64,000 nucleotides of DNA from an uncultured Nocardioidaceae bacterium (GTDB lineage: Bacteria > Actinomycetota > Actinomycetes > Propionibacteriales > Nocardioidaceae). The stretch spans positions 1 through 64,000 of the forward strand of contig CADCUI010000076.1 in assembly GCA_902805845.1 (NCBI GenBank), in the 5' to 3' direction. The first letter of the stretch is position 1. The number at the start of each line of letters is the position of its first letter. Below, piece after piece: positions 25,094 through 58,522 of the stretch. The notes below the pieces were generated by a model. That model was not told the origin of the DNA, searched no databases, and saw only the letters and a list, made by a program, of their open reading frames with translations. The position numbers were made by a program, and so were the translations under genes.

Positions 25094-25864
25094 ATGGCAG
25101 CGCTCGACAGCTTCATCGAAGGACTCGCGGACGAGTCCATCAGGGTGGTCGACCTGACCTCGCCCCTCCACGCCGATACTCCGCTCCTGATGCTCCCGCC
25201 TGAGATGGGGCAGACAGCCCCTTTCGAGCTCGAGGAGATCAGCCGCTACGACGACCGAGGACCGGCCTGGTACTGGAACAACTTCCGTACCGGTGAGCAC
25301 ACCGGGACGCACTTCGACGCACCCGTCCACTGGGTCACGGGGAAGGACCTCCATGACGTCGCGCAGGTGCCGCCGACCCGGCTCGTCGGTCCGGCCGTAG
25401 TCGTCGACTGCGCGGCGCAGGTCCAGGCCGATCCCGACTACCTGCTCGATGCCGCCGACATCCAGGCCTGGGAGTCTGATCACGGCGCACTGCCGGACGG
25501 TTCATGGCTGTTGCTTCGTACCGGATGGTCCGCGCGGGCCGACGACCCGGAGGCCTTCGCGAACGCGGATGCGCAGGGGCCACACACACCAGGCATAAGT
25601 CCGTCGGCGGCGCGCTACCTCGCTGAGTCAGGAATCTTGGGCATCGGCGTGGAGACAGTCGGCACCGATGCGGGCGCGGCTTTCGGGTTCGAGCCGCCGT
25701 TCCCGTGTCATGCGATGGTCCTGGGCGCCAACAAGTACGGCCTCACCCAGCTCCGCAACCTGGACAAGCTGCCACGGACCGGTGCCGTCGTCGTTGCCGC
25801 GCCTCTCCCGATCGTGAAGGGCTCGGGAAGTCCTTGTCGCGTCCTGGCCTTTGTTGCAGTCTGA
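25094..25864 (+). CDS. Cyclase-family (kynurenine-formamidase-like) metal hydrolase
   Basis: This 256-aa protein carries the cyclase-family signature EHTGTHFDAPVHW at residues 68-80, where His69, His73, Asp75 and His79 would bind one or two metal ions. The closing APLPIVKGSGSPCRVLAFV is also typical. Related enzymes hydrolyse N-formylkynurenine, isatin or similar amide and ester substrates. The ATG at 25094 has AGGAG 5 nt upstream. It ends 67 bases before the convergent RidA gene and lies just outside the PaaX-linked cluster. It may deliver or process an aminoaromatic acid for that cluster (inference). Confidence 0.85.
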   Translation: MAALDSFIEGLADESIRVVDLTSPLHADTPLLMLPPEMGQTAPFELEEISRYDDRGPAWYWNNFRTGEHTGTHFDAPVHWVTGKDLHDVAQVPPTRLVGPAVVVDCAAQVQADPDYLLDAADIQAWESDHGALPDGSWLLLRTGWSARADDPEAFANADAQGPHTPGISPSAARYLAESGILGIGVETVGTDAGAAFGFEPPFPCHAMVLGANKYGLTQLRNLDKLPRTGAVVVAAPLPIVKGSGSPCRVLAFVAV

Positions 25865-25931: not shown

Positions 25932-26363
25932 TCAGCGCGAGGGCGGCGTCAAGCGGTCATCCGGGATGACGGCCACGCCGAGGATCTCGATCATCGCCTC
26001 GGGCTGCCACAGACCCGTCGTGCCGATGCCTGCCATGGCGGGGTATGCGGGCCCCGCCAGCTCTCGCCAGACCTGGCCGATCTGTTTGCCGTGTGCCTGA
26101 TAGTCCGCGATGTCGGTCAGGTAGAGGGTGAGGCTGACCAGATCCGAGGGCTCGCCGCCGACCTCCCGAAGAGTGGTCAGGAGGTTGCTGAAGGCTCGCC
26201 CGAACTGCTCGACGATTCCACCGGCCACGATGTTCATATCCTCATCGAGGGCGGTCTGCCCGCCCAAGTGCAGCGTGTTGCCGCTCAGGGTCCCGTGCGA
26301 ATAACCGCGAGGCGCGGGAAGCCCGGGCGGATTGACCGGGATGGGCGTCAGATCTGTCGCCAT
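25932..26363 (-). CDS. RidA-family protein lacking the catalytic arginine
   Basis: This 143-aa protein has the chorismate-mutase-like trimer fold of RidA: YSHGTLSGNTLHLGGQTALDED, QFGRAFSNLLTTLREVGGEP and SDLVSLTLYLTDI. The C-terminal motif PAMAGIGTTGLWQPEAMIEI has Met at the place where RidA enzymes carry the Arg that binds the imine/enamine carboxylate, although the Glu is present. It therefore belongs to a branch that may not be a deaminase of small enamines, and could act on another substrate. The ATG at 26363 has GGAG upstream. It is divergent from the FAH hydrolase, sharing the regulatory region at 26364-26465. Confidence 0.85.
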   Translation of the reverse strand: MATDLTPIPVNPPGLPAPRGYSHGTLSGNTLHLGGQTALDEDMNIVAGGIVEQFGRAFSNLLTTLREVGGEPSDLVSLTLYLTDIADYQAHGKQIGQVWRELAGPAYPAMAGIGTTGLWQPEAMIEILGVAVIPDDRLTPPSR

Positions 26364-26465: not shown

Positions 26466-27284
26466 ATGCGACTCTCGACCGTTCGAACGCCAAGCGGCGC
26501 AACGGCGGCAGCCTCGCACGACGGAGACGTGTGGCGCCGGCTCCCTGCAGACAACCTCTCCACGTTGATCGAAGGTCACCGGCTCGAGGCGATCGACCAC
26601 CTGGCCGGCGCGCCGCTGCCGGATGCCACGCTGGCGCTTCCACTGCCCCATCCGGGCAAGGTGATCTGCTGCGGTCTCAACTACGCCGACCACGTAGTCG
26701 AGACGGGCCGCGACCTGCCCTCCCATCCGACACTGTTCGCCAAGTACGCCGACACGCTGATCGGCCCAGGGGAGGACATCGTCCTGCCGCACGGCCTCGA
26801 GGTCGACTGGGAGGCCGAGCTGGCAGTCGTCGTCGGGGAGACCATCCGTGGGGTCGACGTCGAGCAGGCGCGCGCGGCCATCGCTGGCTACACCGTCGCC
26901 AACGACATCTCGGTCCGTGATTGGCAGCGCCGCACGTTGCAGTGGTTCCAGGGCAAAGCATGGGACCGTACGACACCGGTCGGGCCGGTCGTCGTCACCC
27001 CGGACGAGCTCGACCCGGTCGCCGGGCTCGACGTGGTGTGCCGGATCAACGGTGAGGAGCGGCAGCGAGCCAGCACCGGGACGCTCGTGTTCGACAGTGC
27101 GACTCTGCTGGCCTACATCTCCACATTCACCACGCTTCGCGCCGGTGACCTCGTTCTCACCGGCACGCCTGGTGGCGTCGGAATGGGCATGACACCACCC
27201 ACCTTTCTGGCCTCGGGCGACCACGTCGAGACCGAGATCCCCGGAATCGGAACGCTGAACAACGTCGTCCGGTTCGTGAACTGA
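26466..27284 (+). CDS. Fumarylacetoacetate hydrolase (FAH) family protein
   Basis: This 272-aa protein contains the FAH core: KVICCGLNYADHVVETG, a TLFAKYADTLIGPGEDI segment, VDWEAELAVVVG (the Glu-x-Glu metal ligands near residue 118) and YTVANDISVRDWQ with the third acidic ligand. It ends with LTGTPGGVGMGMTPP and a lid-like ETEIPGIGTL. Family members cleave or decarboxylate beta-diketo acids, for example fumarylpyruvate in the gentisate route or oxalocrotonate in meta cleavage. As first gene of the operon it probably acts on the ring-cleavage product. The ATG at 26466 has GGGAGAGAGG close before it. Confidence 0.9.
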   Translation: MRLSTVRTPSGATAAASHDGDVWRRLPADNLSTLIEGHRLEAIDHLAGAPLPDATLALPLPHPGKVICCGLNYADHVVETGRDLPSHPTLFAKYADTLIGPGEDIVLPHGLEVDWEAELAVVVGETIRGVDVEQARAAIAGYTVANDISVRDWQRRTLQWFQGKAWDRTTPVGPVVVTPDELDPVAGLDVVCRINGEERQRASTGTLVFDSATLLAYISTFTTLRAGDLVLTGTPGGVGMGMTPPTFLASGDHVETEIPGIGTLNNVVRFVN

Positions 27285-27294
27285 CAGGAGACCC

Positions 27295-27780
27295 GTGGAA
27301 CCCGATCTCACGAAGTACGCGCTCGAGGGCGACAGCTCGCGCTATGCGACCGAGGGCGGCATCGTCGTCCCCGTCGTCACCCGGGCAGGTTTCGAGCCCG
27401 ACAACACCGGTCAGTCGGAGGGCGCCACACGCATTTCCGGTGTGAGCATCCAGCACACGCCCGCGACAAAGATCTGGTTCGGGAAGGTGAGCAACGACGC
27501 CAACTACCGCTCGGTCCCGCACCACCACGGAGAAGCCGAGACGGGCGGGTACGTGTTGTCCGGACGCGCTCGCATCTACTTCGGCGAGGGGTTCGTCGAC
27601 TACATCGACATGCAGGAGGGCGACTGGGTCTTCGTGCCGCCCTTCCTGCCGCACGTGGAGTGCAACCTCGACCGCAACAAGCCGCTCACCTGGATGACGA
27701 CCCGGACGCCGGACAACATCGTGGTGAACCTCCCTCAAGTCGACGATGTCGATCTCCCTGACTGGCGAGACCGGCCATGA
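27295..27780 (+). CDS. Single-domain cupin protein, possible ring-cleavage dioxygenase
   Basis: This 161-aa protein is a one-domain cupin. Motif 1 is PHHHGEAETGGYVLSG (residues 78-93) with two His and one Glu placed to bind a metal; motif 2 is GDWVFVPPFLPHVECN (about 107-122) with the last His ligand. The GTG start follows AGGAGACCC, 10 bases after the FAH stop, and the gene overlaps the thioesterase start. It is too short for a classical gentisate dioxygenase, which is bicupin and about 350 aa. Small cupins of this kind include 3-hydroxyanthranilate-type dioxygenases, isomerases and proteins of unknown role. The context favours an aromatic-ring or intermediate-processing enzyme. Confidence 0.8.
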   Translation: MEPDLTKYALEGDSSRYATEGGIVVPVVTRAGFEPDNTGQSEGATRISGVSIQHTPATKIWFGKVSNDANYRSVPHHHGEAETGGYVLSGRARIYFGEGFVDYIDMQEGDWVFVPPFLPHVECNLDRNKPLTWMTTRTPDNIVVNLPQVDDVDLPDWRDRP

Positions 27781-28709
27781 GCGTCACCGACAACGCCGAC
27801 CGTGCCAGCACCTCCCAGATCTTCACGGACGCGGTGACGATGGCCGTGACGGAGCCGGTCCACTTCGACATGGCGTTCACCGCGGTCACGCAACCATGCC
27901 CGTGGCCGAAGGCCTACGGCGGAGACCTCGTGGCTCAGGCGGCGGTAGCTGCCATGCGCTCCGTCCAGGACGGCAAGTCCCTGCATTCCATGCACTCGTC
28001 CTTCCTGCGGCCCGCGGACATCGGCGCACAGGTCCGGTACGAGGTCGAAGTCCTCCGCGACGGACGCAGCTACAGCACACGCCATGTGCGTGGCTTCCAG
28101 CACGACAAGGTCATCTATGCCTGCTACGCCAACTTCACAGCGGGTGAGCCAGGTGGTGACTTCGGGTCTGCCTTCCCGGACAGCATCCCGGCGCCGGAGA
28201 CACTGCCCACCTCGGCGGAGTATCTCGCGCACCGCAGCGGCGGCACGATGACCGAGAAGTCGAAGGAGTACTGGGCCGGTGGACGGGGATTCGACATGCG
28301 TCACGTCCCCGGTCCGGTCTACCTGAGCGTCGAGGGCGACCGGGTCGCGCAGCAGGCGGTCTGGGTCAGGCCGTTCGACGACCTTCGTCCAGTGGCCGGC
28401 CTGACCGATGAGCAGCGAGACCTGGCCGCCGTGGCCTACGTCTGCGACTACACGATCCTCGAGCCGGTGCTGCGTGTCCTCGACCTGGCCTGGGCAACGG
28501 ACGGCCTGGTCACCGCGAGCCTCGACCATGCGATGTGGTGTCACCGGCCGGCGTCGTTGGGCGGCTGGCTGCTGTACGCCCAGGAAGCAGCCTCGGTCGG
28601 CAACGGACGGGGACTGGGCCTCGGTCGCTTCTTCGGCCTCGACGGCTCTCATCTCGCCACCGTCGCCCAAGAAGGCATGATCCGGTTCCCCCAGGGAGGA
28701 CAGGCATGA
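27777..28709 (+). CDS. TesB-type acyl-CoA thioesterase
   Basis: This 310-aa protein is a double hot-dog thioesterase: N-terminal half with PWPKAYGGDLVAQAAVAAMRSV, LHSMHSSFLRPADIGAQVRYEVEVLRDGRSYSTRHVRGFQ, and C-terminal half with ASLDHAMWCHRPASLGGWLLYAQEAASVGNGRGLG. The Asp of SLDHAMW, together with Thr/Gln of the last domain, matches the TesB active site. It overlaps the cupin by ATGA and the CoA ligase by ATGA. In the operon it would release CoA from an aromatic or ring-opened thioester. Why two thioesterases are needed (see 32718) is unclear. Confidence 0.9.
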   Translation: MSVTDNADRASTSQIFTDAVTMAVTEPVHFDMAFTAVTQPCPWPKAYGGDLVAQAAVAAMRSVQDGKSLHSMHSSFLRPADIGAQVRYEVEVLRDGRSYSTRHVRGFQHDKVIYACYANFTAGEPGGDFGSAFPDSIPAPETLPTSAEYLAHRSGGTMTEKSKEYWAGGRGFDMRHVPGPVYLSVEGDRVAQQAVWVRPFDDLRPVAGLTDEQRDLAAVAYVCDYTILEPVLRVLDLAWATDGLVTASLDHAMWCHRPASLGGWLLYAQEAASVGNGRGLGLGRFFGLDGSHLATVAQEGMIRFPQGGQA

Positions 28710-30349
28710 CGGACTTCTCTCCTTCGAGCTACGACGACACGTTCGCCCGTGACAATCTGCCTCCCGCCGATCAATGGCCGGTGTTGGAGTTCACCACTGA
28801 TGCTCTCCAGTACCCGGAGCGGGTGAATGCCGCTGTGGAGATCATCGACGTGCCGACGCAGACCTTCGGACCGGATCGTCCGGCACTTCGGACACCCGAG
28901 GGCACGGTGTGGACCTATGGCGAGCTCCTCCAACGTGCCAACCAGGTTGCGCAGGTGCTCACCGAGGATCTCGGTCTCGTCCCGGGGAACCGTGTCCTCC
29001 TGCGCTCACCGAACAATCCGTGGACCATTGCTGCCTGGCTCGGTGTCCTCAAGGCGGGAGGGATCGTCGTCACGACGATGGCGGCTCTCCGGGCGCGCGA
29101 GCTCGGCGCCATCGTGACCAAGACCCGCCCGGCTGTCGCTCTGGTCGACCACCGCTTTCTCGAGGACGTCCTCACGCTCAAGGAGACGGTCGCGCCGGAG
29201 CTGAGGGTCGTGAGCTACGGCGGTGCGGCCGCCGACGACCTGTCGCAACGAGTCCTCGCCAAGTCCGGTGTCTTCACCGCCGTCGACACCGCGGGCGACG
29301 ACGTTGCCTTGTTCGGCCCGACATCCGGAACCACGGGCGTCCCGAAGGTCACCATTCACTTCCACCGCGACATCCTCTCGATCGACAACACCTTCGGCAG
29401 GCAAACGCTTCAGCTGCGTCCGAGCGACCTGGTGGCGTGCACGGCGCCATTCGCCTTCACCTTCGGACTTGGCATCCTGGTCGTGTTCACCCTCCGGGCA
29501 GGGGCGTGCGCCCTCGTCACCGAGACTGCCGCTCCCGCTGAGCTGGCGGACCTTGTCGCCGAGCACGGTGTGACGGTGCTCGCCACCGCACCCACCGCGT
29601 ACAACCAGATGCTGAAGGCGGGAAAGTCGGACCAGCTGTCGGGGCTGCGCAGTGCGGTGAGCGCGGGAGAGCACCTCCCGCAGTCCCTTTGGCAGGAGAT
29701 CCGGGACAGAGTCGGTCTCAAGGTGATCGATGGGATCGGCGCCACGGAGATGCTGCACATCTTCATCTCTGCCGCGGGGGACGACATCCGCCCTGGCGCC
29801 ACCGGAAGGCCCGTGCCCGGCTATCGCGCCACCATTCTCGACTTCGACGGCAACGAGGTCGACCCGGGAGTGGAAGGTCAGCTTGCCGTCATAGGACCGG
29901 TCGGCTGCCGCTACCTCGACGACGAGCGGCAGAGGAACTACGTCGTCAATGGCTGGAACGTCACCGGTGACACCTTCGTCTCCGACCGTGACGGATACTT
30001 CTGGTATCGGGCTCGCACCGACGACATGATCATCTCCTCGGGGTACAACATCGGTGCCCCCGAGGTGGAGGCGGTCCTCGAGAGCCACCCGGACGTCTTG
30101 GAAGCGGCAGTGGTGGCCAAGCCGGACCCGGACCGGGGTGCCATCGTCTGCGCGTTCGTGGTCCTGCGCGACGCTACTGCCGGGACCGACGTCAAGGGCC
30201 AGGAGATCCAGCACTATGTCAAGGGTCAGCTGGCGCCCTACAAGTATCCACGAGAGGTGCGATTCACCGCATCCCTCCCGCGTAACCCCAGCGGGAAGCT
30301 TCAGCACTACAGGTTGCGAGAGATCGTGAAGTCGGAGGCCGAGGCATGA
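28706..30349 (+). CDS. AMP-forming aromatic acid-CoA ligase (benzoate/2-aminobenzoate type)
   Basis: This 547-aa ANL-superfamily ligase has the P-loop GPTSGTTGVPK (about residues 204-214), IHFHRDILSIDNTFGRQ just after it, the VIDGIGATEMLHIFIS motif and a C-terminal domain with TDDMIISSGYNIGAPEVE and the catalytic Lys in NPSGKLQHYRL. The IHFHRD and IGATEMLHIF features are those of benzoate- and 2-aminobenzoate-CoA ligases, as I know them. It should activate the imported aromatic acid to its CoA ester for the next enzyme, whose gene overlaps it by ATGA. The exact acid (salicylate, anthranilate or a derivative) cannot be decided from sequence. Confidence 0.9.
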   Translation: MTDFSPSSYDDTFARDNLPPADQWPVLEFTTDALQYPERVNAAVEIIDVPTQTFGPDRPALRTPEGTVWTYGELLQRANQVAQVLTEDLGLVPGNRVLLRSPNNPWTIAAWLGVLKAGGIVVTTMAALRARELGAIVTKTRPAVALVDHRFLEDVLTLKETVAPELRVVSYGGAAADDLSQRVLAKSGVFTAVDTAGDDVALFGPTSGTTGVPKVTIHFHRDILSIDNTFGRQTLQLRPSDLVACTAPFAFTFGLGILVVFTLRAGACALVTETAAPAELADLVAEHGVTVLATAPTAYNQMLKAGKSDQLSGLRSAVSAGEHLPQSLWQEIRDRVGLKVIDGIGATEMLHIFISAAGDDIRPGATGRPVPGYRATILDFDGNEVDPGVEGQLAVIGPVGCRYLDDERQRNYVVNGWNVTGDTFVSDRDGYFWYRARTDDMIISSGYNIGAPEVEAVLESHPDVLEAAVVAKPDPDRGAIVCAFVVLRDATAGTDVKGQEIQHYVKGQLAPYKYPREVRFTASLPRNPSGKLQHYRLREIVKSEAEA

Positions 30350-32721
30350 GGATCGCGATTGTCGGTGGCGGGCCTGGAGGCCTGTACTTCGCTGCCCTGA
30401 TGAAGGGCATCGACTCGGATCACGAGGTGACCGTCTGGGAGCGCAACGCTCCAGACGACACGTTCGGTTTCGGTGTCGTCTTCTCGGACGAGACGCTCGG
30501 TGGCATCGAAGGCGCCGACTCGGTCGTCCACGACCTGATGGAAAGCCGGTTCGCGCGATGGACCGACATCGACGTCGACTTCAACGGACACTCGTTCACT
30601 GTCGGCGGCCAGGGTTTCGCGGCCATGAGCCGCAAGGAGCTCCTCGAGATACTTCAGCGCCGGGTCCATGAGCTCGGCGTGACGGTCCACTACCGGTCAG
30701 CGGCGCCGGACTGCGACGAGCTGCGAGAACAGCATGACCTCGTGCTGGCCTCCGACGGCCTCAACTCGGTGGTCCGGACGAAGTACGCCGACGTGTTCAA
30801 GCCCACCCTCGACCGTCGCAAGAACAAGTACATCTGGTTCGGCACCGACCTCGTGTTCGAGGCGTTCCAGTTCTTCGTCAAGGAGACGCAGTGGGGAACG
30901 ATGCAGATCCATGGCTATCCCTACTCCGAGGCAGGGTCCACGTTCATCGTCGAGATGCACGAGGACGTGTGGCGCAGGGCCGGCTTCGACGAGACGGAGA
31001 ACGAGCTCTTCCCGCCGGGCGTCTCGGACGAGCATGCCGTTGAGCGCGTCAAGGACATCTTCGCTGAGGAGCTCCAGGGTCGAGCGATCTTCTCCAACAA
31101 CTCCACGTGGCTCAACTTCCACACCGTCCGCAACGAGAGGTGGTACGACGGCAATGTGGTGCTGCTAGGCGATGCGGCCCACACCGCTCACTTCTCCATC
31201 GGGTCCGGCACCAAGCTGGCGATGGAGGACGCCCTCGCCCTCGCAGCGTGCCTCCATGAGCACCCGACCGTGGACGCCGCGCTCGCTGCCTACCAGACCG
31301 AGCGGAAACCGGTGGTGGAGTCGACCCAGCGTGCCGCGCAGGCCTCGCTGGAGTGGTTCGAGAACATCGGCATGTACTCGAGGCAGGACCCGGCGCAGTT
31401 CGTCTTCAACCTGCTCACCCGGTCTCGGAGGATCACCTTCCAGAACCTCAAGGACCGCGATCGGTTGTTCGCCGCACGGATGGAGGAGGAGTTCGCGCGT
31501 CACCAGGGCGCGGCGAGTGTCGCTCCGGCGATGTTCCAGCCCGTGCGCATCGGACCGCTGGAGCTGAAGAACCGCATCGTCTTGTCGCCGATGGACATGT
31601 ACATCGCGGTGGAGGGAATGCCGGGCGACTTCCACCTGGCCCACCTGGGTTCGAAGGCCATGGGCGGTGCGGGACTGGTGATGAGCGAGATGACGTGCGT
31701 GTCGCCCGAGGGCCGCATCACACTGGGTTGCCCGGGGCTGTGGACCGACGCTCAGGGCGAGGCGTGGCGGAGGATCACCGACTTCGTCCACAGCCATTCG
31801 ACGGCCAAGATCGGTTTGCAGCTCGGCCACTCGGGGCGCAAGGGCTCGACCAAGCTGATGTGGGAGGGCATGGACGAGCCGCTCGAGGACGGCAACTGGG
31901 AGGTCGTGGGGCCCTCCGCTCTGCCGTACGGATCCGGCTGTCATGTACCCCGCGAGGCCACGGTCGCGGACATGGACAAGATCGTTGATGAGTTCGTGAC
32001 GGCCGCTCAGCGCGGGGTCGATGCCGGGTTCGACCTCATTGAGCTGCACGCCGCGCACGGCTACCTGCTCAGCTCGTACCTGTCGCCGGTCTCGAACCGG
32101 CGCACCGACGAGTACGGCGGAACGGTGGAGAATCGACTTCGCTACCCGCTCGAGGTGTTCGATGCCGTGCGCGCGGTGGTGCCGGACTCGATACCTGTCA
32201 CGGTTCGGATCTCGGCCACCGATTGGGTACCGGACGGCAACACCGAGGATGACGCCGTCGACATCGCCCGTGCGTTCATCGAGCACGGGGCCGCCGCGAT
32301 CGACGTGACCTCCGGTCAGGTGACCAAGGATGAGAAGCCTGCCTTCGGTCGTTCGTACCAGACTCCCTTCGCCGACAAGATCCGGCATACCGTGGCCGAG
32401 CCGGCCGGTGTGAGGGTGATCGCCGTCGGCGCCATCTCGTCGTACGACGATGTGAACTCGATCCTGCTGGCGGGACGCGCTGACCTGTGTGCCTTGGGCC
32501 GACCGCACTTGTACAACCCGCAGTGGACGCTGCACGCCGCAGCTGAGCAGGACTACCACGGTGAAGGCGCTGACTGGCCGACACCATGGAAGGCCGGCCG
32601 TCGCAAGCCACCGACCTCTCGCACCGACAAGATTCCGCCTCGACTGTCGCTGCTGCGTGACGGGGCGGCCGACGACGTGCACATCCGCTGGACGCCTGGC
32701 CGTAGGACGGTGTCCGTGTGA
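30346..32721 (+). CDS. Bifunctional FAD monooxygenase/old yellow enzyme (salicylyl-CoA 5-hydroxylase or 2-aminobenzoyl-CoA monooxygenase/reductase family)
   Basis: The 791-aa protein fuses two flavoenzymes. Residues 1-385 form an aromatic-ring FAD monooxygenase: IVGGGPGGLYFA at the N terminus, the GFGVVFSDETL segment, and GDAAHTAHFSIGSGTKLAMEDA near residue 278. Residues from about 395 form an FMN old-yellow-enzyme domain: FQPVRIGPLELKNRIVLSPM, LQLGHSGRKGS, ELHAAHGYLLSSYLSPVSN, NRRTDEYGG and VGAISSYDDVNSILLAGRADL. This fusion is the hallmark of aryl-CoA epoxidase/monooxygenase-reductases, which hydroxylate a CoA-activated aromatic ring. Salicylyl-CoA to gentisyl-CoA and anthraniloyl-CoA dearomatisation are the known uses. 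Overlaps with both neighbours place it in the operon. Confidence 0.93.
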   Translation: MRIAIVGGGPGGLYFAALMKGIDSDHEVTVWERNAPDDTFGFGVVFSDETLGGIEGADSVVHDLMESRFARWTDIDVDFNGHSFTVGGQGFAAMSRKELLEILQRRVHELGVTVHYRSAAPDCDELREQHDLVLASDGLNSVVRTKYADVFKPTLDRRKNKYIWFGTDLVFEAFQFFVKETQWGTMQIHGYPYSEAGSTFIVEMHEDVWRRAGFDETENELFPPGVSDEHAVERVKDIFAEELQGRAIFSNNSTWLNFHTVRNERWYDGNVVLLGDAAHTAHFSIGSGTKLAMEDALALAACLHEHPTVDAALAAYQTERKPVVESTQRAAQASLEWFENIGMYSRQDPAQFVFNLLTRSRRITFQNLKDRDRLFAARMEEEFARHQGAASVAPAMFQPVRIGPLELKNRIVLSPMDMYIAVEGMPGDFHLAHLGSKAMGGAGLVMSEMTCVSPEGRITLGCPGLWTDAQGEAWRRITDFVHSHSTAKIGLQLGHSGRKGSTKLMWEGMDEPLEDGNWEVVGPSALPYGSGCHVPREATVADMDKIVDEFVTAAQRGVDAGFDLIELHAAHGYLLSSYLSPVSNRRTDEYGGTVENRLRYPLEVFDAVRAVVPDSIPVTVRISATDWVPDGNTEDDAVDIARAFIEHGAAAIDVTSGQVTKDEKPAFGRSYQTPFADKIRHTVAEPAGVRVIAVGAISSYDDVNSILLAGRADLCALGRPHLYNPQWTLHAAAEQDYHGEGADWPTPWKAGRRKPPTSRTDKIPPRLSLLRDGAADDVHIRWTPGRRTVSV

Positions 32722-33176
32722 CGTCGCGGCCCGCCTGCTCGGACAGCCCGGCTCCGGTGGGCGTCTTCAGGACGCGCGTGGAGTGGATCGACACCGACGC
32801 TGCGGGTATCTACCACAACAGTGTTGTGACCCGCTTCGTTGAAGCAGCAGAGGCCACCCTCATGGCAGAGCGTGGCCTGAACGAGTACTTCCCCGTGGCG
32901 CCGCGGGTTCGCTACGAGGTCCAGTTCGCGGCGCCGTTGTTCTTCGGTCAGGACGTGACGACCGTGGTGGAGCTGGTCAGGTTGGGTTCATCGTCCATGA
33001 CCTTCGACTTCGTGGTGTGGGGGGAGGAGTTCGGCGATCGCGCTCGACGGCGTGCGGCGCACGGGTCCTACGTCACCGTCCACATCGACCGCAGTCACCA
33101 GGACCAGGCGACGAGCACCGCATGGCCTGAGGCATGGGTCAGGGCCCTTGGTGGATGTCGTGATGTCGAGAAATGA
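32718..33176 (+). CDS. 4-Hydroxybenzoyl-CoA-type (4HBT) thioesterase
   Basis: This 152-aa single hot-dog protein has VEWIDTDAAGIYHNSVVTRFVEAAEATLM (residues 21-49), the 4HBT signature in which the Asp of DTDAAG is catalytic, followed by VRYEVQFAAPLFFGQDVTTVVELVRLGSSS. The GTG at 32718 overlaps the stop of the monooxygenase gene. The natural role is to hydrolyse the hydroxylated aryl-CoA made by the preceding enzyme, as in the salicylyl-CoA to gentisate route. The last 30 residues are divergent and poorly ordered. Confidence 0.9.
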   Translation: MTSRPACSDSPAPVGVFRTRVEWIDTDAAGIYHNSVVTRFVEAAEATLMAERGLNEYFPVAPRVRYEVQFAAPLFFGQDVTTVVELVRLGSSSMTFDFVVWGEEFGDRARRRAAHGSYVTVHIDRSHQDQATSTAWPEAWVRALGGCRDVEK

Positions 33177-33206
33177 GCGGGACTAGCACCAATGCTGGAG
33201 AAGGAC

Positions 33207-34070
33207 ATGCACGAGGAGACCAAGGTCGGCGTACGTCCACGCCGGTCCGGAACTCTCCTGGTGAGCTTCCTTGGATCGGTCGTACGACGGATGGGCAACT
33301 GGATGCCCATCGCGGGCGGTGTGGAGCTGATGGGGCAGGTGGGACTAGATCCTCCGAGCTCGCGCACCGCGGTCTTCCGGCTCAAGCAGCGCGGGTGGCT
33401 CGTCTCAGAGACCCGTGGTGACGCACGGGGATACGTCCTGACGCCGTTGGCGCAGCGGGCACTTGCAGAAGGCGACGAGGTGATCTGGCACGCACGCCAG
33501 CCTGCCGATATCGCAGACGGCTGGTGCATCGTGAACTTCTCCGTGCCGGAGTCGGAACGCTCCAAGCGGCACCAGCTACGAGCGCTCGTGTCCTCGCTCG
33601 GTTTCGGCAACGTAGGTACAGCCATGTGGATCGCGCCGGCACGCATGCTGAGTGCCGCCGAGAACGCCATCGCCGAGCTCGGGTTGGACGAGTATGCGGC
33701 CATCTTCGTGGGCGACTACATGGGCAGGCAAGATCTCCGCAGCTTGCTCTCCGCCAGCTGGGACCTCGACGCGATCAATGAGCGGTACAAGGCGTTCCTC
33801 GCCCGGTACTCCACCGAGGTGGAAGGGTTGTCGGCCCAGAAGACCATCGACCCGCAGCAGGCGTTCATCACGTACTTGCGCGGTGTCGATCACTGGCGCA
33901 AGCTGCCGTTTCGCGATCCCGGACTTCCTCGACAGGTGCTGGCGGCCGACTGGAGCGCACCCCAGGCAGCAGTCCTCTTCGAGCAGCTCGTGTCCATCCT
34001 GGAGAGGCGTGCGCTGGATTATGCGGCTGGGTTCTGGCCCGACGTCGAGGACGCAGCGACCGCGCGGTAG
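33207..34070 (+). CDS. PaaX-family transcriptional regulator
   Basis: This 287-aa protein has an N-terminal winged helix (about residues 15-75; LLVSFLGSVVRR, SRTAVFRLKQRGWLVSETRGDARGYVLTPLAQRAL), a middle PaaX domain with WCIVNFSVPESERSKRHQLRALVSSLGFGNVGTAMWIAP, and a C-terminal helical domain. This is the PaaX architecture, whose members repress aromatic-acid operons until an aryl-CoA binds. The ATG at 33207 is chosen because GGAG lies 6 nt upstream; ATG 33192 is an alternative. Lying between the catabolic operon and the transporter gene, it should bind the shared site at 26416 and 34102 (inference). Confidence 0.9.
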   Translation: MHEETKVGVRPRRSGTLLVSFLGSVVRRMGNWMPIAGGVELMGQVGLDPPSSRTAVFRLKQRGWLVSETRGDARGYVLTPLAQRALAEGDEVIWHARQPADIADGWCIVNFSVPESERSKRHQLRALVSSLGFGNVGTAMWIAPARMLSAAENAIAELGLDEYAAIFVGDYMGRQDLRSLLSASWDLDAINERYKAFLARYSTEVEGLSAQKTIDPQQAFITYLRGVDHWRKLPFRDPGLPRQVLAADWSAPQAAVLFEQLVSILERRALDYAAGFWPDVEDAATAR

Positions 34071-34101
34071 GCGGACAGCATGGGCGCAGTGGTATCACGT
34101 C

Positions 34102-34134
34102 CTATTGACGATCGTCACAGGCGCGTCATATGTT
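34102..34134 (+). promoter_or_regulatory. Promoter with palindromic operator before the MFS transporter
   Basis: TTGACG (34105-34110) and TATGTT (34129-34134), spaced 18 bases, form a likely promoter. The -35 lies inside TGACGATCGTCA (34106-34117), a perfect 12-bp palindrome. The 14-base block CTATTGACGATCGT differs by one base from the one before the FAH operon, with the same -35/-10 spacing. The next gene starts at 34212. Confidence 0.55.
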
Positions 34135-34211
34135 CGTGAGCAGTCACCGACGATCGGCTCACCGGACACCGCCGTCCTCCTCATGTCGGTGACGTGACCA
34201 GAGGATCGTCC

Positions 34212-35567
34212 ATGGCAGTCGACTCAACGCGTCACACGCGGACCACCTCCCGCAACGTCGTCGTGCTCCTGTGCTGCGCCACGATCATCATCGACGGTTA
34301 CGACCTGATCGTTTACGGCACCGTCGTCCCGACCATGCTGGACGGGTCCGCCGAGTGGACCCTGACCAAGGCGGAAGCAGGCCGGATCGGCTCGTACGCC
34401 CTCATCGGCATGCTCATCGGCGCGATTGCGGTCGGCACGATCACCGACCTGGTCGGGCGACGCAAGATCATGCTGGGCTGCATCGCCTGGTTCTCCGTCG
34501 CCATGGCGCTCGCAGCGATGGCGCCGACCCCCGAGACGTTCGGCCTCGCTCGCTTCGTCGCAGGACTGGGGCTCGGCGGGGTGGTTCCCACCGCCATCGC
34601 GCTCACCATCGAGTACGCCCATCCGCGTCATCGCAGCACAACGAACGGCATCATGTTCTCGGGCTACTCAGCGGGAGGCATCCTGGCCGCGCTGCTGGCG
34701 ATCGCGGTCATCCCGGAGCTGGGCTGGCGGACGATGTTCTGGATCGGTGCCGGACTGGGGGGGCTGGTCCTTCTTCCCATCGCGGCGGCGATGCTTCCCG
34801 AGTCGGCCGGGTTTCTCCTTGCCCGTGGTCGCCGAGCTGAGGCCGAGGCGCTCGCTGCCCGCTACGACACCACCCTGGAAGAGCCCGCTACCCCGCAGGC
34901 CTCCGACGCCCAGCCCGGTGGACTGGCCGTCCTCAAGGCTCTCTTCGTTCCCCGCTACTTTCGAGGAACAGTCCTGTTCTGGCTCGGCACGGGCGTCGGT
35001 CTCCTGCTGGTCTACGGGTTGAACACCTGGCTGGCACAGATCATGCGTGAGGCTGGTTATCCGCTCGGCCCGGCTCTCGGGTTTCTCATCGCCTTGAATC
35101 TGGGCGCCATCGTCGGCACGCCATTGCTGGGAGCCCTGGCGGACCGGGTGGGTTCCAAGTCCGTGACGTCCGGCATGTTCCTCACGGCGGCGGTGTGCAT
35201 CTTCCTGCTGAGCTTCGAGCTCCCCAGCGCGGTCCTGCTCGTCCTCGTCGCCGTGGCGGGCGCGTGCACGATCGGCACCACCATCCTGGTGAATGCCTAC
35301 ACCGCCACGTTCTACCCGGCGCAGATGCGGGCGACCGGCCTCGGCTGGGCCTTGGGAATCGGCCGGCTCGGCGCCATTCTCGGACCGGTCTACGGTGGGT
35401 TCGTGCTGAGCTCGGGGTGGGGCCTGAACGCGAACTTCTACGCATTCGCCGTCCCCGCGTTGCTGGGTGGACTCGTCATGCTGCTCATTCCGACGCTGGC
35501 CACGGACGCGACGGGGGAGAGCGAGTCCCGCGGGTCCGACCAGCAAGTGACCGACCGTGCCGACTAG
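34212..35567 (+). CDS. MFS aromatic acid:H+ symporter (AAHS family)
   Basis: This 451-aa protein has twelve predicted helices and the AAHS signatures: IIIDGYDLIVYGTVVPTM in helix 1, where the Asp and Tyr are conserved in PcaK/BenK transporters, GTITDLVGRRKIML between helices 2 and 3, and AEALAARYD in the central loop. Helix 7 starts LFWLGTGVGLLLVYGLNTWLAQIM. It should import the aromatic acid that feeds the CoA ligase. The ATG at 34212 has AGAGGA 6 nt upstream; the GTG at 34194 is an alternative. The stop overlaps the ThDP-enzyme start by 11 bases, so the two are co-translated. Confidence 0.92.
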   Translation: MAVDSTRHTRTTSRNVVVLLCCATIIIDGYDLIVYGTVVPTMLDGSAEWTLTKAEAGRIGSYALIGMLIGAIAVGTITDLVGRRKIMLGCIAWFSVAMALAAMAPTPETFGLARFVAGLGLGGVVPTAIALTIEYAHPRHRSTTNGIMFSGYSAGGILAALLAIAVIPELGWRTMFWIGAGLGGLVLLPIAAAMLPESAGFLLARGRRAEAEALAARYDTTLEEPATPQASDAQPGGLAVLKALFVPRYFRGTVLFWLGTGVGLLLVYGLNTWLAQIMREAGYPLGPALGFLIALNLGAIVGTPLLGALADRVGSKSVTSGMFLTAAVCIFLLSFELPSAVLLVLVAVAGACTIGTTILVNAYTATFYPAQMRATGLGWALGIGRLGAILGPVYGGFVLSSGWGLNANFYAFAVPALLGGLVMLLIPTLATDATGESESRGSDQQVTDRAD

Positions 35568-37203
35568 GACGGTCGCCCAGGCGGTCGGGGAGACGCTCAC
35601 AGCCCTCGGTGTGGACCACGTCTTCGGCGTGGTCGGATCTGGCAACTTCCATGTCACCAACGCCATGGTCGAGGCGGGGGCACGCTTCGTGCCCGCGCGT
35701 CATGAGGGCGGGGCCGCGACCATGGCTGATGCCTACGCCCGGATGAGCGGCCACGTGGCGGCGCTCAGCGTTCACCAGGGATGTGGGCTGACCAATGCCC
35801 TCACCGGTATCGCCGAGGCGGCGAAGAGCCGGACTCCTCTCGTGGTGCTCGCAGCCGAGGTCACGGAGACACGCTCCAACTTCTTCGTGGACCAAGAGGC
35901 ATTGGCGACGGCCGTGGGGGCCTCCTCCATGCGACTGACGAGCGGCGAAACCGCCGTCGCGGACACCGTGTCGGCGGTGAAGACCGCAGCACACTCGCGG
36001 CGCACCGTCCTGCTGAATCTCCCGCTCGGCGTCCAGGCGCAGCCAGCCGCTGACCCATCCACGACCCCGTCACTGGCCCCGGCTCCAGACGCCGCGCCGC
36101 CGAACGAGGGCGAGTTGTCCGCGCTGGTCGAGGCGCTTGAGCGGTCGAGACGGCCGGTCTTCGTCGCGGGCCGTGGCTCCCGAAGCGAGGCCAGCCGCTC
36201 GGCGTTGCAGGCGCTGGGTGACAGGTACGGATCACTGCTCGCCACGTCTGCCGTCGCGCGTGGTCTCTTCACCGGTGATCCCTGGTCCCTCGATGTGTCT
36301 GGGGGATTCTCCTCGCCACTTGCCGCGGAGCTCATCGCTGGCGCGGACCTCATCGTCGGCTGGGGTTGCGCCCTGAACATGTGGACCATGCGGCACGGGC
36401 ACCTCATCGGACCAGACACCTACGTGGTACAGGTCGATGACACCGTCAGTGCCATCGGCGCCCAGCGGTCCGTGGACCTGGGAGTCGTGGGAGATGTCGC
36501 GCGAACGGCCACAGCCGCCTTGGAGCTGGCCGGTGTCCCACGGACCGGGTACCGCGACTCGGCGGTGAGGGATCGCATCGCAGCGAGCATCCGATGGCGA
36601 GACGTACCCTTCGATGACGCCAGCACGCCGGAGCGCATCGACCCGCGGCTGCTCTCGATCGCTCTCGACGACCTGCTGCCCCCGAACCGCATCCTTGCGG
36701 TCGACTCCGGCAACTTCATGGGTTACCCGAGCATGTACCTGTCGATACCGGACGAGGACGGGTTCTGCTTCACCCAGGCCTTTCAATCCGTCGGTCTCGG
36801 GCTCGCCACCGCCATCGGGGCTGCCCTCGCTCAACCGGACCGCTTGCCCGTGGCGGCCTTGGGGGACGGTGGCGCACTCATGGGCGCGGCCGAGCTCGAG
36901 ACAGTGTGTCGTCTCTCGTTGCCGATGGTGGTGATCGTGTACAACGACGACGCGTACGGCGCTGAGGTCCACCACTTCGAGCCTGATGGATTTCCGGTGA
37001 CCACGGTCAGGTTTCCGAGCACCGACATCGCCGCGATCGGACGGGGATACGGGTTCGAGGCGGTCAGCGTGCGCACCGTCGCCGATCTGGGTCCGGTCGC
37101 CGACTGGGTCGCCGGTCCGAGACGTTCACCGCTGTTGATCGACGCCAAGGTGAGTCAGGATCAAGGCTCATGGTGGCTCGAAGAGGCGTTTCGCGGCCAC
37201 TGA
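35557..37203 (+). CDS. Thiamine-diphosphate-dependent enzyme (acetolactate synthase/benzoylformate decarboxylase-like)
   Basis: This 548-aa protein has the three ThDP-enzyme domains: pyrimidine-binding (1-165, catalytic Glu50 in PARHEGGAATMADAYAR), central (195-330) and diphosphate-binding (360-530, ALGDGGALMG and the Asn of VIVYNDDAYG as Mg/ThDP ligands). The first domain matches acetolactate-synthase-like proteins. The GTG start overlaps the MFS gene. In an aromatic cluster it would decarboxylate or condense a 2-oxo acid, for example an aryl glyoxylate, but no aldehyde dehydrogenase is nearby to complete such a step, so the function is open. Confidence 0.88.
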   Translation: MPTRTVAQAVGETLTALGVDHVFGVVGSGNFHVTNAMVEAGARFVPARHEGGAATMADAYARMSGHVAALSVHQGCGLTNALTGIAEAAKSRTPLVVLAAEVTETRSNFFVDQEALATAVGASSMRLTSGETAVADTVSAVKTAAHSRRTVLLNLPLGVQAQPAADPSTTPSLAPAPDAAPPNEGELSALVEALERSRRPVFVAGRGSRSEASRSALQALGDRYGSLLATSAVARGLFTGDPWSLDVSGGFSSPLAAELIAGADLIVGWGCALNMWTMRHGHLIGPDTYVVQVDDTVSAIGAQRSVDLGVVGDVARTATAALELAGVPRTGYRDSAVRDRIAASIRWRDVPFDDASTPERIDPRLLSIALDDLLPPNRILAVDSGNFMGYPSMYLSIPDEDGFCFTQAFQSVGLGLATAIGAALAQPDRLPVAALGDGGALMGAAELETVCRLSLPMVVIVYNDDAYGAEVHHFEPDGFPVTTVRFPSTDIAAIGRGYGFEAVSVRTVADLGPVADWVAGPRRSPLLIDAKVSQDQGSWWLEEAFRGH

Positions 37204-37334: not shown

Positions 37335-38105
37335 ATGACCGAGACCACCACCACCATCGCCCTGATCACGGGGGGCAACCGCGGCCTGGGCCGCGCCGCC
37401 GCCCTCCACCTCGCCGCCGCCGGCGCCGACGTCGTCCTCACCTACCGGTCGAACACCGAAGAGGCCGCGAAGGTCGTCACCGACGTGCAGGACGCGGGCC
37501 GCCGCGCGGTCGCCCTGGCGCTCGACACGACGCAGCCAGCTGATTTCCCCTTCTTCGCCGAGGAGGTGGCACGGGTGCTGCGCGAGTGCTGGGGCCGGGA
37601 CTCCTTCGACGTCCTGGTCAACAACGCCGGCGCTGTGACAGCCACGCCGGTGGGGACGACGGACCGCTCGGCAATCGACGAGATGGTCGGGGTGCACTTC
37701 ACCGGCGTCGTCCTGCTCACCCAGGAGCTCCTGCCGCTGCTGGCCGACGGGGGCCGGGTCGTCAACACCTCGACCGGCCTCGCCCGCTTCACGGGCGACC
37801 CGTCGTACTCGGTGTATGCCGCGGTGAAGGGTGCCGTGGAGGTGTGGACGCGGTACCTCGCCAAGGCCGTCGGCGGCCGCGGCATCACCGCAAACGTGAT
37901 CGCGCCCGGACCGGTCGCCACCGACTTCGGCGGCGGATACCTGCGCGACGACGAGGAGTTGCGCCGCGCCCTGGGCGGCAACGCCGCCCTTGGCCGGGTC
38001 GGCGAGCCCGACGACATCGGGGCGGCCGTCGCTGCTCTCGCTGTCGGCGGGCTGGGATGGGTCACCGGTCAGCGCATCGAGGCCTCGGGCGGCACCTTCC
38101 TGTGA
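37335..38105 (+). CDS. Short-chain dehydrogenase/reductase
   Basis: The 256-aa SDR has TGGNRGLG (residues 12-19), NNAG at about 100, VVNTSTG with the catalytic Ser, and YSVYAAVKGAVE with the Tyr-x-x-x-Lys pair. It ends GQRIEASGGTFL. ATG 37335 is used although GGAG lies only 2 nt before it. The gene is followed 32 bases later by the helix-turn-helix gene, likely its regulator. It probably lies outside the PaaX regulon. The substrate is not identifiable. Confidence 0.87.
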   Translation: MTETTTTIALITGGNRGLGRAAALHLAAAGADVVLTYRSNTEEAAKVVTDVQDAGRRAVALALDTTQPADFPFFAEEVARVLRECWGRDSFDVLVNNAGAVTATPVGTTDRSAIDEMVGVHFTGVVLLTQELLPLLADGGRVVNTSTGLARFTGDPSYSVYAAVKGAVEVWTRYLAKAVGGRGITANVIAPGPVATDFGGGYLRDDEELRRALGGNAALGRVGEPDDIGAAVAALAVGGLGWVTGQRIEASGGTFL

Positions 38106-38137
38106 GCCCCGGCAGGCCCGATCACCGACAATCAGGC

Positions 38138-38974
38138 ATGGACCGCGCCCAGCTCGCCGACTTCCTCCGCACCCGCCGTGAGGTGCTGCAGCCCGAGGAC
38201 GTCGGGCTGCCGCGCGGCCCGCGACGGCGTACCGGTGGCCTCCGGCGGGAGGAGGTCGCCGCGCTGTCAGGCCTCTCGGCCGACTACTACAGCCGCATCG
38301 AGCAGCAGCGCGGCCCGCACCCGTCGGAGCAGATGCTGGCCGCGCTCGCGCGTGGGCTGCGACTCTCCCTCGACGAGCGCGACCACCTCCTGGCGCTCGG
38401 CGGGTACGCCGTGCCGCAGCGCTCACGCAGCGGCGACCACGTGGACGCAGGGATCATGAGGGTGTTGGATCGGCTCCAGGACACTCCCGCCATGGTGATC
38501 AGCGGGCTGGGGGAGACCCTGGTCCAGACACCGCCCGCAGTCGCGCTCTTCGGCGACGAGACGGCGTACGAGGGGCTGGACCGCCATGTCGCTCACCGCT
38601 GGTTCACCGACCCAAGCTCGAGGCGGACCTACCGGGAGCAGGACCACCCGCTGCACGGCCGGCAGTTCGTCGCCGACCTCCGCGCCGCCCTGGTCCGCGA
38701 GGGACCGGGGTCGCGGGCCCAGGAGCTCGTGGACTCCCTGCTGGCGCGAAGCGAGGAGTTCGCCGACGTCTGGGCGCAGCACGAGGTCGGGCGCCGGCAC
38801 AGCACGGTCAAGCACTTGGTGCACCCTGAGGTAGGAGACCTCGAGGTGTACTGCCAGGTCCTCCAGGACCCGGATCAGTCGCAGGGTCTCCTCGTCTTCA
38901 CCGCAGTTCCGGGCAGCCCGTCGTACGAGCGGCTCCAGCTGCTGTCGGTCCTCGGACCGGCCGTCGGGCGTTGA
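38138..38974 (+). CDS. MmyB-type helix-turn-helix regulator
   Basis: This 278-aa protein has an N-terminal XRE helix-turn-helix (residues 1-80; LRREEVAALSGLSADYYSRIEQQRG and SEQMLAALARGLRLS) and a C-terminal MmyB-like ligand domain (100-270; TPAMVISGLGETLVQTPPAVALFGDE, RHSTVKHLVHPEVGDLEV). Members often sit beside, and control, a short-chain dehydrogenase gene, the arrangement seen here. The C-terminal domain resembles PAS folds that bind small hydrophobic molecules. Start is ATG 38138. Confidence 0.9.
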   Translation: MDRAQLADFLRTRREVLQPEDVGLPRGPRRRTGGLRREEVAALSGLSADYYSRIEQQRGPHPSEQMLAALARGLRLSLDERDHLLALGGYAVPQRSRSGDHVDAGIMRVLDRLQDTPAMVISGLGETLVQTPPAVALFGDETAYEGLDRHVAHRWFTDPSSRRTYREQDHPLHGRQFVADLRAALVREGPGSRAQELVDSLLARSEEFADVWAQHEVGRRHSTVKHLVHPEVGDLEVYCQVLQDPDQSQGLLVFTAVPGSPSYERLQLLSVLGPAVGR

Positions 38975-40243: not shown

Positions 40244-40363
40244 GGAAACGAGGCTACGACCGGGCCGGCACCCGAATGGCACACTCAGGTGCCACTTCCG
40301 CTCATGTGGGTAGGGTCGCCTCGGCCCCACCCGGGGGTCGCGGGCGAGACAGGGCGCGGCGAC

Positions 40364-50732: not shown

Positions 50733-50749
50733 ACATGAGTGGAGGCACC

Positions 50750-51922: not shown

Positions 51923-51936
51923 GTCCCGCTGGCTGT

Positions 51937-51954
51937 TGAATGAACGTTCAGATA
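51937..51954. promoter_or_regulatory. TetR operator 5, before the dimethylglycine-dehydrogenase-like gene
   Basis: TGAATGAACGTTCAGATA: the central TGAACGTTCA is a perfect 10-bp palindrome and the outer arms diverge. It lies 18 bases before the start at 51972. Confidence 0.65.
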
Positions 51955-51971
51955 GTGGCAGGGTGCCTGCC

Positions 51972-54491: not shown

Positions 54492-54514
54492 CCCCGACCA
54501 GCTAGGAGTTCGTC

Positions 54515-55717: not shown

Positions 55718-55719
55718 CC

Positions 55720-57321: not shown

Positions 57322-57336
57322 CTGTTTGTACAGTTA
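57319..57336. promoter_or_regulatory. TetR operator 6, before the Rieske-TetR unit
   Basis: TGACTGTTTGTACAGTTA: left arm TGACTGT, right arm ACAGTTA. The TGA stop of the PYROXD2-like gene (57319-57321) lies inside it. The Rieske gene starts 31 bases downstream. Confidence 0.6.
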
Positions 57337-57366
57337 GGCACACTGCATGCCTCGCTGGGAGTCGCC

Positions 57367-58476: not shown

Positions 58477-58522
58477 CGGGCGCCGTCGGGTCAGCGCGAC
58501 CGGGCTCGGAAGGATAGGGACC

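Follow-up and report, generated by a model that had tools for sequence, protein, structure and literature searches.

What opens the ring in a CoA-dependent aromatic pathway that has no classical gentisate dioxygenase is the question raised by this locus, which lies in a window of 64,000 nucleotides from an uncultured Nocardioidaceae bacterium. To our knowledge, the steps after the 2-aminobenzoyl-CoA monooxygenase/reductase have not been resolved in actinobacteria. The genes from the fumarylacetoacetate-hydrolase (FAH) family protein through the TPP-dependent enzyme (26466-37203) were all in frame and in one direction, forming a tight operon with a 4 bp overlap at four adjoining gene junctions. 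The RidA gene was divergent from this operon, and a PF04199 gene lay further left. The reading we favor, with a probability of roughly 0.55, is an inducible anthranilate catabolic operon with entry from isatin, in which a ring-reduced beta-keto acid would be cleaved by the cupin.

25094-25864, + strand: predicted isatin hydrolase (PF04199 cyclase family), 256 aa; phmmer matches to solved isatin hydrolases and metal motif
25932-26363, - strand: Rid-family deaminase (PF01042), proposed to hydrolyze an enamine
26466-27284, + strand: FAH family protein (PF01557, 1e-69), proposed succinylpyruvate (acylpyruvate) hydrolase
27295-27780, + strand: single-domain cupin, 161 aa (Cupin_1/Cupin_2), proposed for O2-dependent ring cleavage of a ring-reduced beta-keto acid
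27777-28709, + strand: TesB-like acyl-CoA thioesterase (PF02551/PF13622)
28706-30349, + strand: anthranilate-CoA ligase (TIGR02262, 5e-97, below cut-off; 63% identity to the pAL1 ligase)
30346-32721, + strand: predicted anthraniloyl-CoA monooxygenase/reductase, a fusion of FAD monooxygenase and OYE reductase (PRK08255; 70% identity to the pAL1 copy)
32718-33176, + strand: hotdog (4HBT) thioesterase (PF03061/PF13279), 4 bp overlap with the preceding gene
33192-34070, + strand: PaaX-family transcriptional regulator (PF08223, PF20803, PF07848)
34194-35567, + strand: aromatic acid:H+ symporter (AAHS, MFS; TIGR00895, 3.5e-98)
35557-37203, + strand: TPP-dependent enzyme (PF02776/PF00205/PF02775), proposed isatinate decarboxylase

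All genes named in a preliminary description of this DNA were confirmed in place and in frame, and the gene content bears out the CoA-dependent aromatic pathway that it had suggested. The last gene of its range, that of the TPP enzyme, had been left unnamed. The order RidA-(FAH)-cupin-TesB-CoA ligase-FAD/OYE was seen again at 39 other loci, spread over many families, so the arrangement is not due to chance.

The fusion enzyme scored 1201 bits against PRK08255 in NCBIfam (cut-off 1078) over residues 1-765, and the OYE reductase residues Y419, H568, H571 and Y573 were intact; together with the identity to the pAL1 copy, these results identify it by sequence as a 2-aminobenzoyl-CoA monooxygenase/reductase. 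The predicted substrate of the operon is anthranilate and not salicylate, and both the genes and this substrate are well supported. An earlier hint of a nitrogen-containing substrate, drawn from the left end of the cluster, thus proved correct, given the RidA gene, the isatin hydrolase and an orthologous ligase that has been assayed on anthranilate. Isatin or indole is the probable source of the anthranilate, which may also derive from tryptophan. Among relative loci, the same cluster type adjoins a tryptophan dioxygenase and a kynureninase-like gene in one, a kynureninase in another, and a 2-heptyl-3-hydroxy-4-quinolone dioxygenase in a third.

The phmmer comparison of the PF04199 protein with the solved Labrenzia aggregata and Ralstonia solanacearum isatin hydrolases gave whole-protein matches of 6e-84 to 5NMP, 7e-84 to 5NNB (the isatinate complex) and 6e-76 to 4J0N, with no difference noted. 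The shared HxxxHxD metal motif was present as HTGTHFDAPVHW, and the longer metal/catalytic motif HTGTHFDAPxHW was conserved. The protein is accordingly annotated as a predicted isatin hydrolase, converting isatin to isatinate; the "cyclase-family hydrolase" of the preliminary description keeps its family and loses the cyclase identity. Kynurenine formamidase was dropped as an identity, since isatin hydrolases match far better. Relatives of the TPP enzyme (58-68%) were found near an isatin hydrolase and beside the monooxygenase/reductase in five loci (L037, L071, L136, L193 and L203), and no relative of assigned specificity stood out among solved structures. The TPP enzyme is probably an isatinate decarboxylase.

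The organism's genome (3.28 Mb, 96% complete) was searched for known ring-cleaving enzymes. It gave 0 TIGR02272 candidates, so the absence of a classical gentisate dioxygenase, first remarked for the cluster, holds genome-wide, and the gentisate dioxygenase elsewhere in the genome that had been named as evidence against a role for the cupin was not found. No intradiol dioxygenase was present, and no anthranilate dioxygenase scored above cut-off. A Rieske oxygenase at 57367-58476 was rejected as an anthranilate dioxygenase, being a weak match to the model and glycine-betaine-monooxygenase-like. Neither an enoyl-CoA hydratase nor an acyl-CoA dehydrogenase was found among the cluster genes. An unrelated acyl-CoA dehydrogenase lies at 50735-51922, 13.5 kb from the cluster.

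Three lower pathways were distinguished in a comparison set of 101 loci with the same monooxygenase/reductase, to which a second sample added 3 gentisate-dioxygenase loci. The cupin version, with FAH and RidA, occurred in 39 of the 101 loci, the version with crotonase, acyl-CoA dehydrogenase and RidA (beta-oxidation) in 52, and the version with gentisate dioxygenase and FAH but without RidA in 5. The cupin was never found together with enoyl-CoA hydratase/acyl-CoA dehydrogenase (39 vs 52 loci), nor with gentisate dioxygenase. RidA accompanied 38/39 other cupin loci, 42/52 beta-oxidation loci and 0/5 gentisate-dioxygenase loci; FAH was present in 33/39, 0/52 and 5/5, respectively, and TesB in 38/39 cupin and 0/52 beta-oxidation loci. 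On the monooxygenase/reductase tree, at least four separate origins of the cupin version are required, and well-supported branches force each of these changes.

The state of the OYE site followed the lower pathway. All four residues were kept in 40/40 cupin-locus and 52/52 beta-oxidation-locus enzymes, and Y573 was lost in 5/5 gentisate-dioxygenase-locus enzymes and in 3/3 from the second sample. Because the reductase site is intact at cupin loci and damaged with gentisate dioxygenase, and because the lower pathways are mutually exclusive, the most likely substrate of the cupin is the ring-reduced product, not gentisate.

The cupin itself gave no match in NCBIfam, including TIGR02272. H76, H78, E82 and H120 were invariant in an alignment of 38 relatives, and the HxHx3E motif with its downstream histidine forms a predicted four-ligand (3-His/1-Glu) pattern when aligned with oxalate decarboxylase. 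A three-His site of the Dke1 type was set aside because E82, a putative metal ligand, is invariant and aligns with the oxalate decarboxylase glutamate. The predicted model has the cupin fold, and fold searches returned "cupin" without a function; a match of this kind cannot tell a dioxygenase from an isomerase, a decarboxylase or a storage protein. We nevertheless agree with the earlier proposal that the small cupin is a candidate oxygen-dependent cleavage enzyme.

In the proposed order of steps, isatin would be converted to isatinate by the isatin hydrolase and decarboxylated by the TPP enzyme towards anthranilate, which the ligase would convert to anthraniloyl-CoA. The fusion enzyme would hydroxylate this at C5, and its OYE half would then reduce the ring to 2-amino-5-oxocyclohex-1-enecarbonyl-CoA. 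Hydrolysis of the enamine by the Rid protein would give 2,5-dioxocyclohexanecarbonyl-CoA, from which a thioesterase would free the beta-keto acid (enol form, dihydrogentisate). The cupin, as a 3-His/1-Glu metal dioxygenase, would use O2 to cleave C1-C2, giving 2,4-dioxoheptanedioate (succinylpyruvate). The FAH protein would split this into pyruvate and succinate, with none of the seven carbons lost along the route. The operon would thus carry a new version of the known anthranilate pathway. That it represents a third lower pathway, in which the ring is made non-aromatic, deaminated and freed from CoA before a new family of ~160-residue single-domain cupin dioxygenases cuts the dihydrogentisate enol to succinylpyruvate for FAH to convert to pyruvate and succinate, we hold tentatively, at slightly under even odds. 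Neither isatin with a thiamine-dependent decarboxylase nor cupin cleavage of a non-aromatic ring with oxygen, succinylpyruvate and dihydrogentisate was found in the open-licence literature; subscription papers could describe parts.

Several observations count against this route. Locus L109 combines a gentisate dioxygenase with an isatin-hydrolase-like gene and has no RidA. The Rid protein reads YPAM, not YPAR, and so lacks the arginine of canonical RidA; among the Rid proteins of the cupin type (39) and the beta-oxidation type (42), >90% have methionine at this position. FAH is missing from the neighborhood of six cupin loci. FAH paralogues (46-51% identity) were found elsewhere in three of those six genomes; the FAH proteins of gentisate-dioxygenase loci (44-48%) were no closer to the FAH studied here than unrelated paralogues.

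Hydrolysis of C-C bonds in beta-dicarbonyls is the established chemistry of the FAH family. It is conceivable, though unlikely, that the FAH protein itself opens the cyclic beta-keto acid or its thioester by a retro-Claisen reaction to 4-oxopimelate, with the cupin an isomerase, decarboxylase or accessory protein, as its nearest sequence matches (oxalate decarboxylases and sugar isomerases) would allow. However, the cupin was kept at every cupin locus and FAH was absent from six, which makes the cupin the more constant of the two; moreover, FAH is also found in the gentisate-dioxygenase clusters, and there it acts on an acylpyruvate.

The earlier view, in which the cupin would be a small version of a gentisate-type dioxygenase and would cleave aromatic 5-hydroxyanthranilate or gentisate after thioester hydrolysis, appears improbable. 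It gains from the FAH common to cupin and true gentisate-dioxygenase loci, from the gentisate and salicylate dioxygenases among the cupin's structural neighbors (not above other cupins), and from the hydroxyanthraniloyl-CoA described for anthranilate-grown Arthrobacter sp. Rue61a in the relevant passages of PMC3534580. These substrates are nevertheless disfavored: every fusion enzyme beside a cupin has an intact reductase half (40/40, against 8/8 damaged beside gentisate dioxygenases), and RidA would be left without an enamine to act on. The same passages report that neither salicylate nor gentisate supports growth of Rue61a and that the strain only cometabolizes 5-hydroxyanthranilate, for which uptake could be the reason. 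A salicylate pathway through salicylyl-CoA and gentisyl-CoA to gentisate, which the NCBIfam name of the fusion enzyme (bifunctional salicylyl-CoA 5-hydroxylase/oxidoreductase) would favor and the preliminary description had left as an option, is very improbable and was rejected, given the anthranilate-active orthologous ligase, the RidA and isatin hydrolase genes, the genome without gentisate dioxygenase, and an intact OYE site where the salicylate-like gentisate-dioxygenase clusters have a damaged one and neither RidA nor cupin.

The missing step is narrowed to one small protein and one substrate class, and can be tested with two purified enzymes. If the favored route is true, the cupin would be an oxygenase for the cleavage of a reduced ring, the state of the fused reductase domain would be a clean indicator of whether aromaticity is retained or destroyed in a pathway, and the common database name "salicylyl-CoA 5-hydroxylase/oxidoreductase" would be corrected for most family members.

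An anthranilate cluster orthologous to this operon lies on the linear plasmid pAL1 (pARUE113) of Rue61a, where RidA is likewise divergent from FAH, cupin, thioesterase, ligase and monooxygenase/reductase; PaaX regulators and a hotdog protein are present there as well. The feeder differs, being quinaldine degradation in pAL1 and the isatin hydrolase and TPP enzyme here. According to the relevant passages of PMC3534580, the pAL1 ligase was assayed on anthranilate, and only the ligase and monooxygenase/reductase were assigned; the word "cupin" is absent from the paper, and those passages do not discuss the FAH protein. They report that anthranilate-grown cells contained the CoA esters of two acids, C7H7NO3 and C7H8O4, the latter matching cyclohexanedione-carboxyl-CoA. 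Since Rue61a has a further copy on its chromosome, these data cannot be assigned to the plasmid cluster. The sdg-like salicylyl-CoA/gentisate clusters of Streptomyces share the ligase, FAD/OYE fusion, FAH, PaaX and sometimes the hotdog thioesterase, but differ in having gentisate 1,2-dioxygenase and a damaged OYE site and in having neither RidA nor the small cupin; on this precedent, the gentisate-dioxygenase loci presumably use salicylate. The aerobic 2-aminobenzoyl-CoA (abm) pathway of the Azoarcus evansii type shares the ligase, monooxygenase/reductase and Rid protein, and its relatives in Paracoccus, Ruegeria, Thalassospira, Pandoraea and Streptomyces have an enoyl-CoA hydratase-like protein and an acyl-CoA dehydrogenase, in place of which the operon described here has the cupin, FAH and TesB.

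Nine genes lie on one strand at 26466-37203, most adjacent pairs overlapping or nearly so at their ends, with a divergent Rid protein and, farther out, a PF04199 hydrolase to the left; this confirms the gene content given in the preliminary description, which had not named the TPP enzyme. The fusion enzyme clears the curated NCBIfam PRK08255 cut-off (1201 bits vs 1078).

25932-26363 (-), Rid protein
26466-27284 (+), FAH hydrolase
27295-27780 (+), 161-aa cupin
then (+), TesB-like thioesterase (TesB), CoA ligase
30346-32721 (+), FAD monooxygenase/OYE reductase fusion
then (+), hotdog thioesterase, PaaX regulator, AAHS importer
35557-37203 (+), TPP enzyme
37335-38105 (+), SDR oxidoreductase, directly after the TPP enzyme and possibly part of the operon
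~38130-38974 (+), MmyB-like regulator

Elsewhere in the window, an 831-aa ORF at 39020-41515 (-) has a LanC-like domain (residues 457-626) and neighbouring ORFs without Pfam matches, and 51885-59176 is a glycine betaine/sarcosine-type catabolic cluster.

51885-54491, DAO-GCV_T fusion
54515-55717, GCV_T
57367-58476, GbcA-like Rieske oxygenase
58373-59176, BetI-like regulator

Besides the window, 101 fusion-enzyme loci from a named genome survey, plasmid records and whole genomes were sorted by lower pathway. The cupin class (39 loci) had RidA in 38, FAH in 33 and TesB in 38, and none of the 39 had enoyl-CoA hydratase (ECH), acyl-CoA dehydrogenase (ACAD) or gentisate dioxygenase. The beta-oxidation-like class (ECH and/or ACAD, 52 loci) had RidA in 42 and cupin, FAH or TesB in none. 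All five gentisate dioxygenase loci had FAH, and none had RidA or cupin. One locus was mixed (L080), and four, some on short contigs, carried no marker. Exclusion between cupin and ECH/ACAD gave a Fisher value of 1e-26 in a plain test that ignores descent. In Streptomyces loci L124 (12010-13464) and L134 (12036-13394) a nitrilase gene separates the fusion enzyme gene from that of gentisate dioxygenase.

On a quick monooxygenase tree, in which Quadrisphaera L136 is a long branch, the cupin class requires at least four changes, each forced by branches with support of at least 95. The cupin locus of Rhizobium leguminosarum (L051) was sister to a beta-oxidation locus of Comamonas (L063), and those of Spongiactinospora/Nonomuraea (L083/L084) shared a small clade with beta-oxidation locus L091. 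These changes indicate that the cupin module has repeatedly substituted for ECH/ACAD behind the same monooxygenase.

YqjM/OYE-family enzymes bind the substrate carbonyl with two histidines and use a tyrosine as proton donor; the window counterparts are H568, H571 and Y573, with Y419 opposite. None of these residues is lost in any of the 40 enzymes of the cupin class or the 52 of the beta-oxidation class, whereas gentisate-dioxygenase-class enzymes had lost Y573 (5/5) and H568 (4/5). Another 20 loci, sampled afresh, added three gentisate dioxygenase loci (L185, L186, L204), all without Y573; loci with RidA and ECH/ACAD kept it, and L196, with no dioxygenase found nearby, lacked it. Judged from these residues, enzymes whose product has to remain aromatic for gentisate dioxygenase have a broken reductase and those alongside the cupin keep theirs, so that the cupin substrate is most likely the ring-reduced product. 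Of the CoA-dependent aromatic route with cupin ring cleavage suggested earlier, the CoA pathway held, with anthranilate, and an aromatic, gentisate-type substrate for the cupin is disfavoured.

Residues H76, H78, E82 and H120 were invariant across 38 aligned cupin relatives and aligned with the oxalate decarboxylase metal ligands. The structure prediction shows one cupin barrel, with a mean pLDDT of 75.7 and about 90 in the core; in fold comparison it fell among many cupins, with no functional signal. Distant relatives (35-40% identity) are widespread outside this gene context. Among closer relatives (50-65%), five are found away from such clusters: four adjoin FAH, two of these (L057, L058) an OYE-type reductase too, and L041 has neither alongside. 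The Rhodococcus ruber plasmid cupin (L057, 7962-8390), beside FAH, MaoC and alkene reductase genes, carries Arg in place of H76, which is invariant elsewhere, and has possibly decayed or changed.

According to PMC3534580, the characterised Azoarcus enzyme forms 2-amino-5-oxocyclohex-1-enecarbonyl-CoA given enough NADH, and Rue61a grown on anthranilate contained two acids as CoA esters, C7H7NO3 and C7H8O4. The C7H8O4 acid fits deaminated 2,5-dioxocyclohexanecarboxylate. RidA would deaminate the Azoarcus-type product to 2,5-dioxocyclohexanecarbonyl-CoA; the enol form of free 2,5-dioxocyclohexanecarboxylate is dihydrogentisate. If O2 cleaved C1-C2, the bond attacked by gentisate dioxygenase, the product would be 2,4-dioxoheptanedioate (succinylpyruvate), which FAH would split, acylpyruvates being the kind of substrate that FAH-family hydrolases split. 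These last steps are supported by FAH in cupin and gentisate-dioxygenase loci and in 0/52 beta-oxidation loci; FAH sequences by themselves do not demonstrate orthology between the former two classes. Putative ring cleavage by the cupin is the best-supported reading.

Rid proteins of the cupin and beta-oxidation classes have Met at the position of the canonical RidA Arg, a residue presumed to bind the carboxylate of the substrate; its loss would fit a thioester substrate. The motif is YPAM instead of YPAR in the window protein and in >90% of the Rid proteins of 81 loci (39 cupin-type, 42 beta-oxidation-type), a distinct subfamily tied to the fusion enzyme across two different lower pathways.

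The whole genome (3.28 Mb, 96% complete) held no candidate gentisate dioxygenase, which extends the earlier remark that no classical one is present, and no intradiol dioxygenase; neither anthranilate 1,2-dioxygenase nor 3-hydroxyanthranilate dioxygenase had a match above cut-off in it. Tryptophan 2,3-dioxygenase is present on a different contig from the window.

The pathway substrate is anthranilate, on the basis of an orthologous pAL1 cluster with an assayed ligase, anthranilate-feeding neighbours of relatives and an isatin hydrolase match. One related cluster adjoins tryptophan 2,3-dioxygenase and a kynureninase-like gene, another kynureninase and another AqdC1, a 2-heptyl-3-hydroxy-4-quinolone dioxygenase; the tryptophan 2,3-dioxygenase/kynureninase and AqdC1 routes are established ones to anthranilate. 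The PF04199 protein, previously called a cyclase-family hydrolase, matched solved isatin hydrolases (6e-84). In L037, L071, L136, L193 and L203, relatives of the TPP enzyme are encoded close to isatin hydrolase and the fusion monooxygenase. Entry would run from isatin through isatinate to anthranilate, with the TPP enzyme the putative catalyst of the second step. Genes resembling the window's isatin hydrolase (65-74% identity) also adjoin the monooxygenase/reductase in L109 (12300-13199), L196, L197, L199 and L200, which belong to lineages that have either gentisate dioxygenase or none of the known lower pathways nearby; the L109 and L196 fusion enzymes lack Y573.

Overall, the genes describe an anthranilate-CoA pathway whose lower branch is of the cupin/FAH type, and the nitrogen-containing substrate first suspected is supported by the isatin hydrolase match and the pAL1 ligase. 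In PMC3534580 that ligase, which shares 63% identity with the one in the window, was produced and its anthranilate-CoA ligase activity assayed. Plasmid pAL1 of Arthrobacter sp. Rue61a carries the same cluster as the window, there adjoining quinaldine-to-anthranilate genes.
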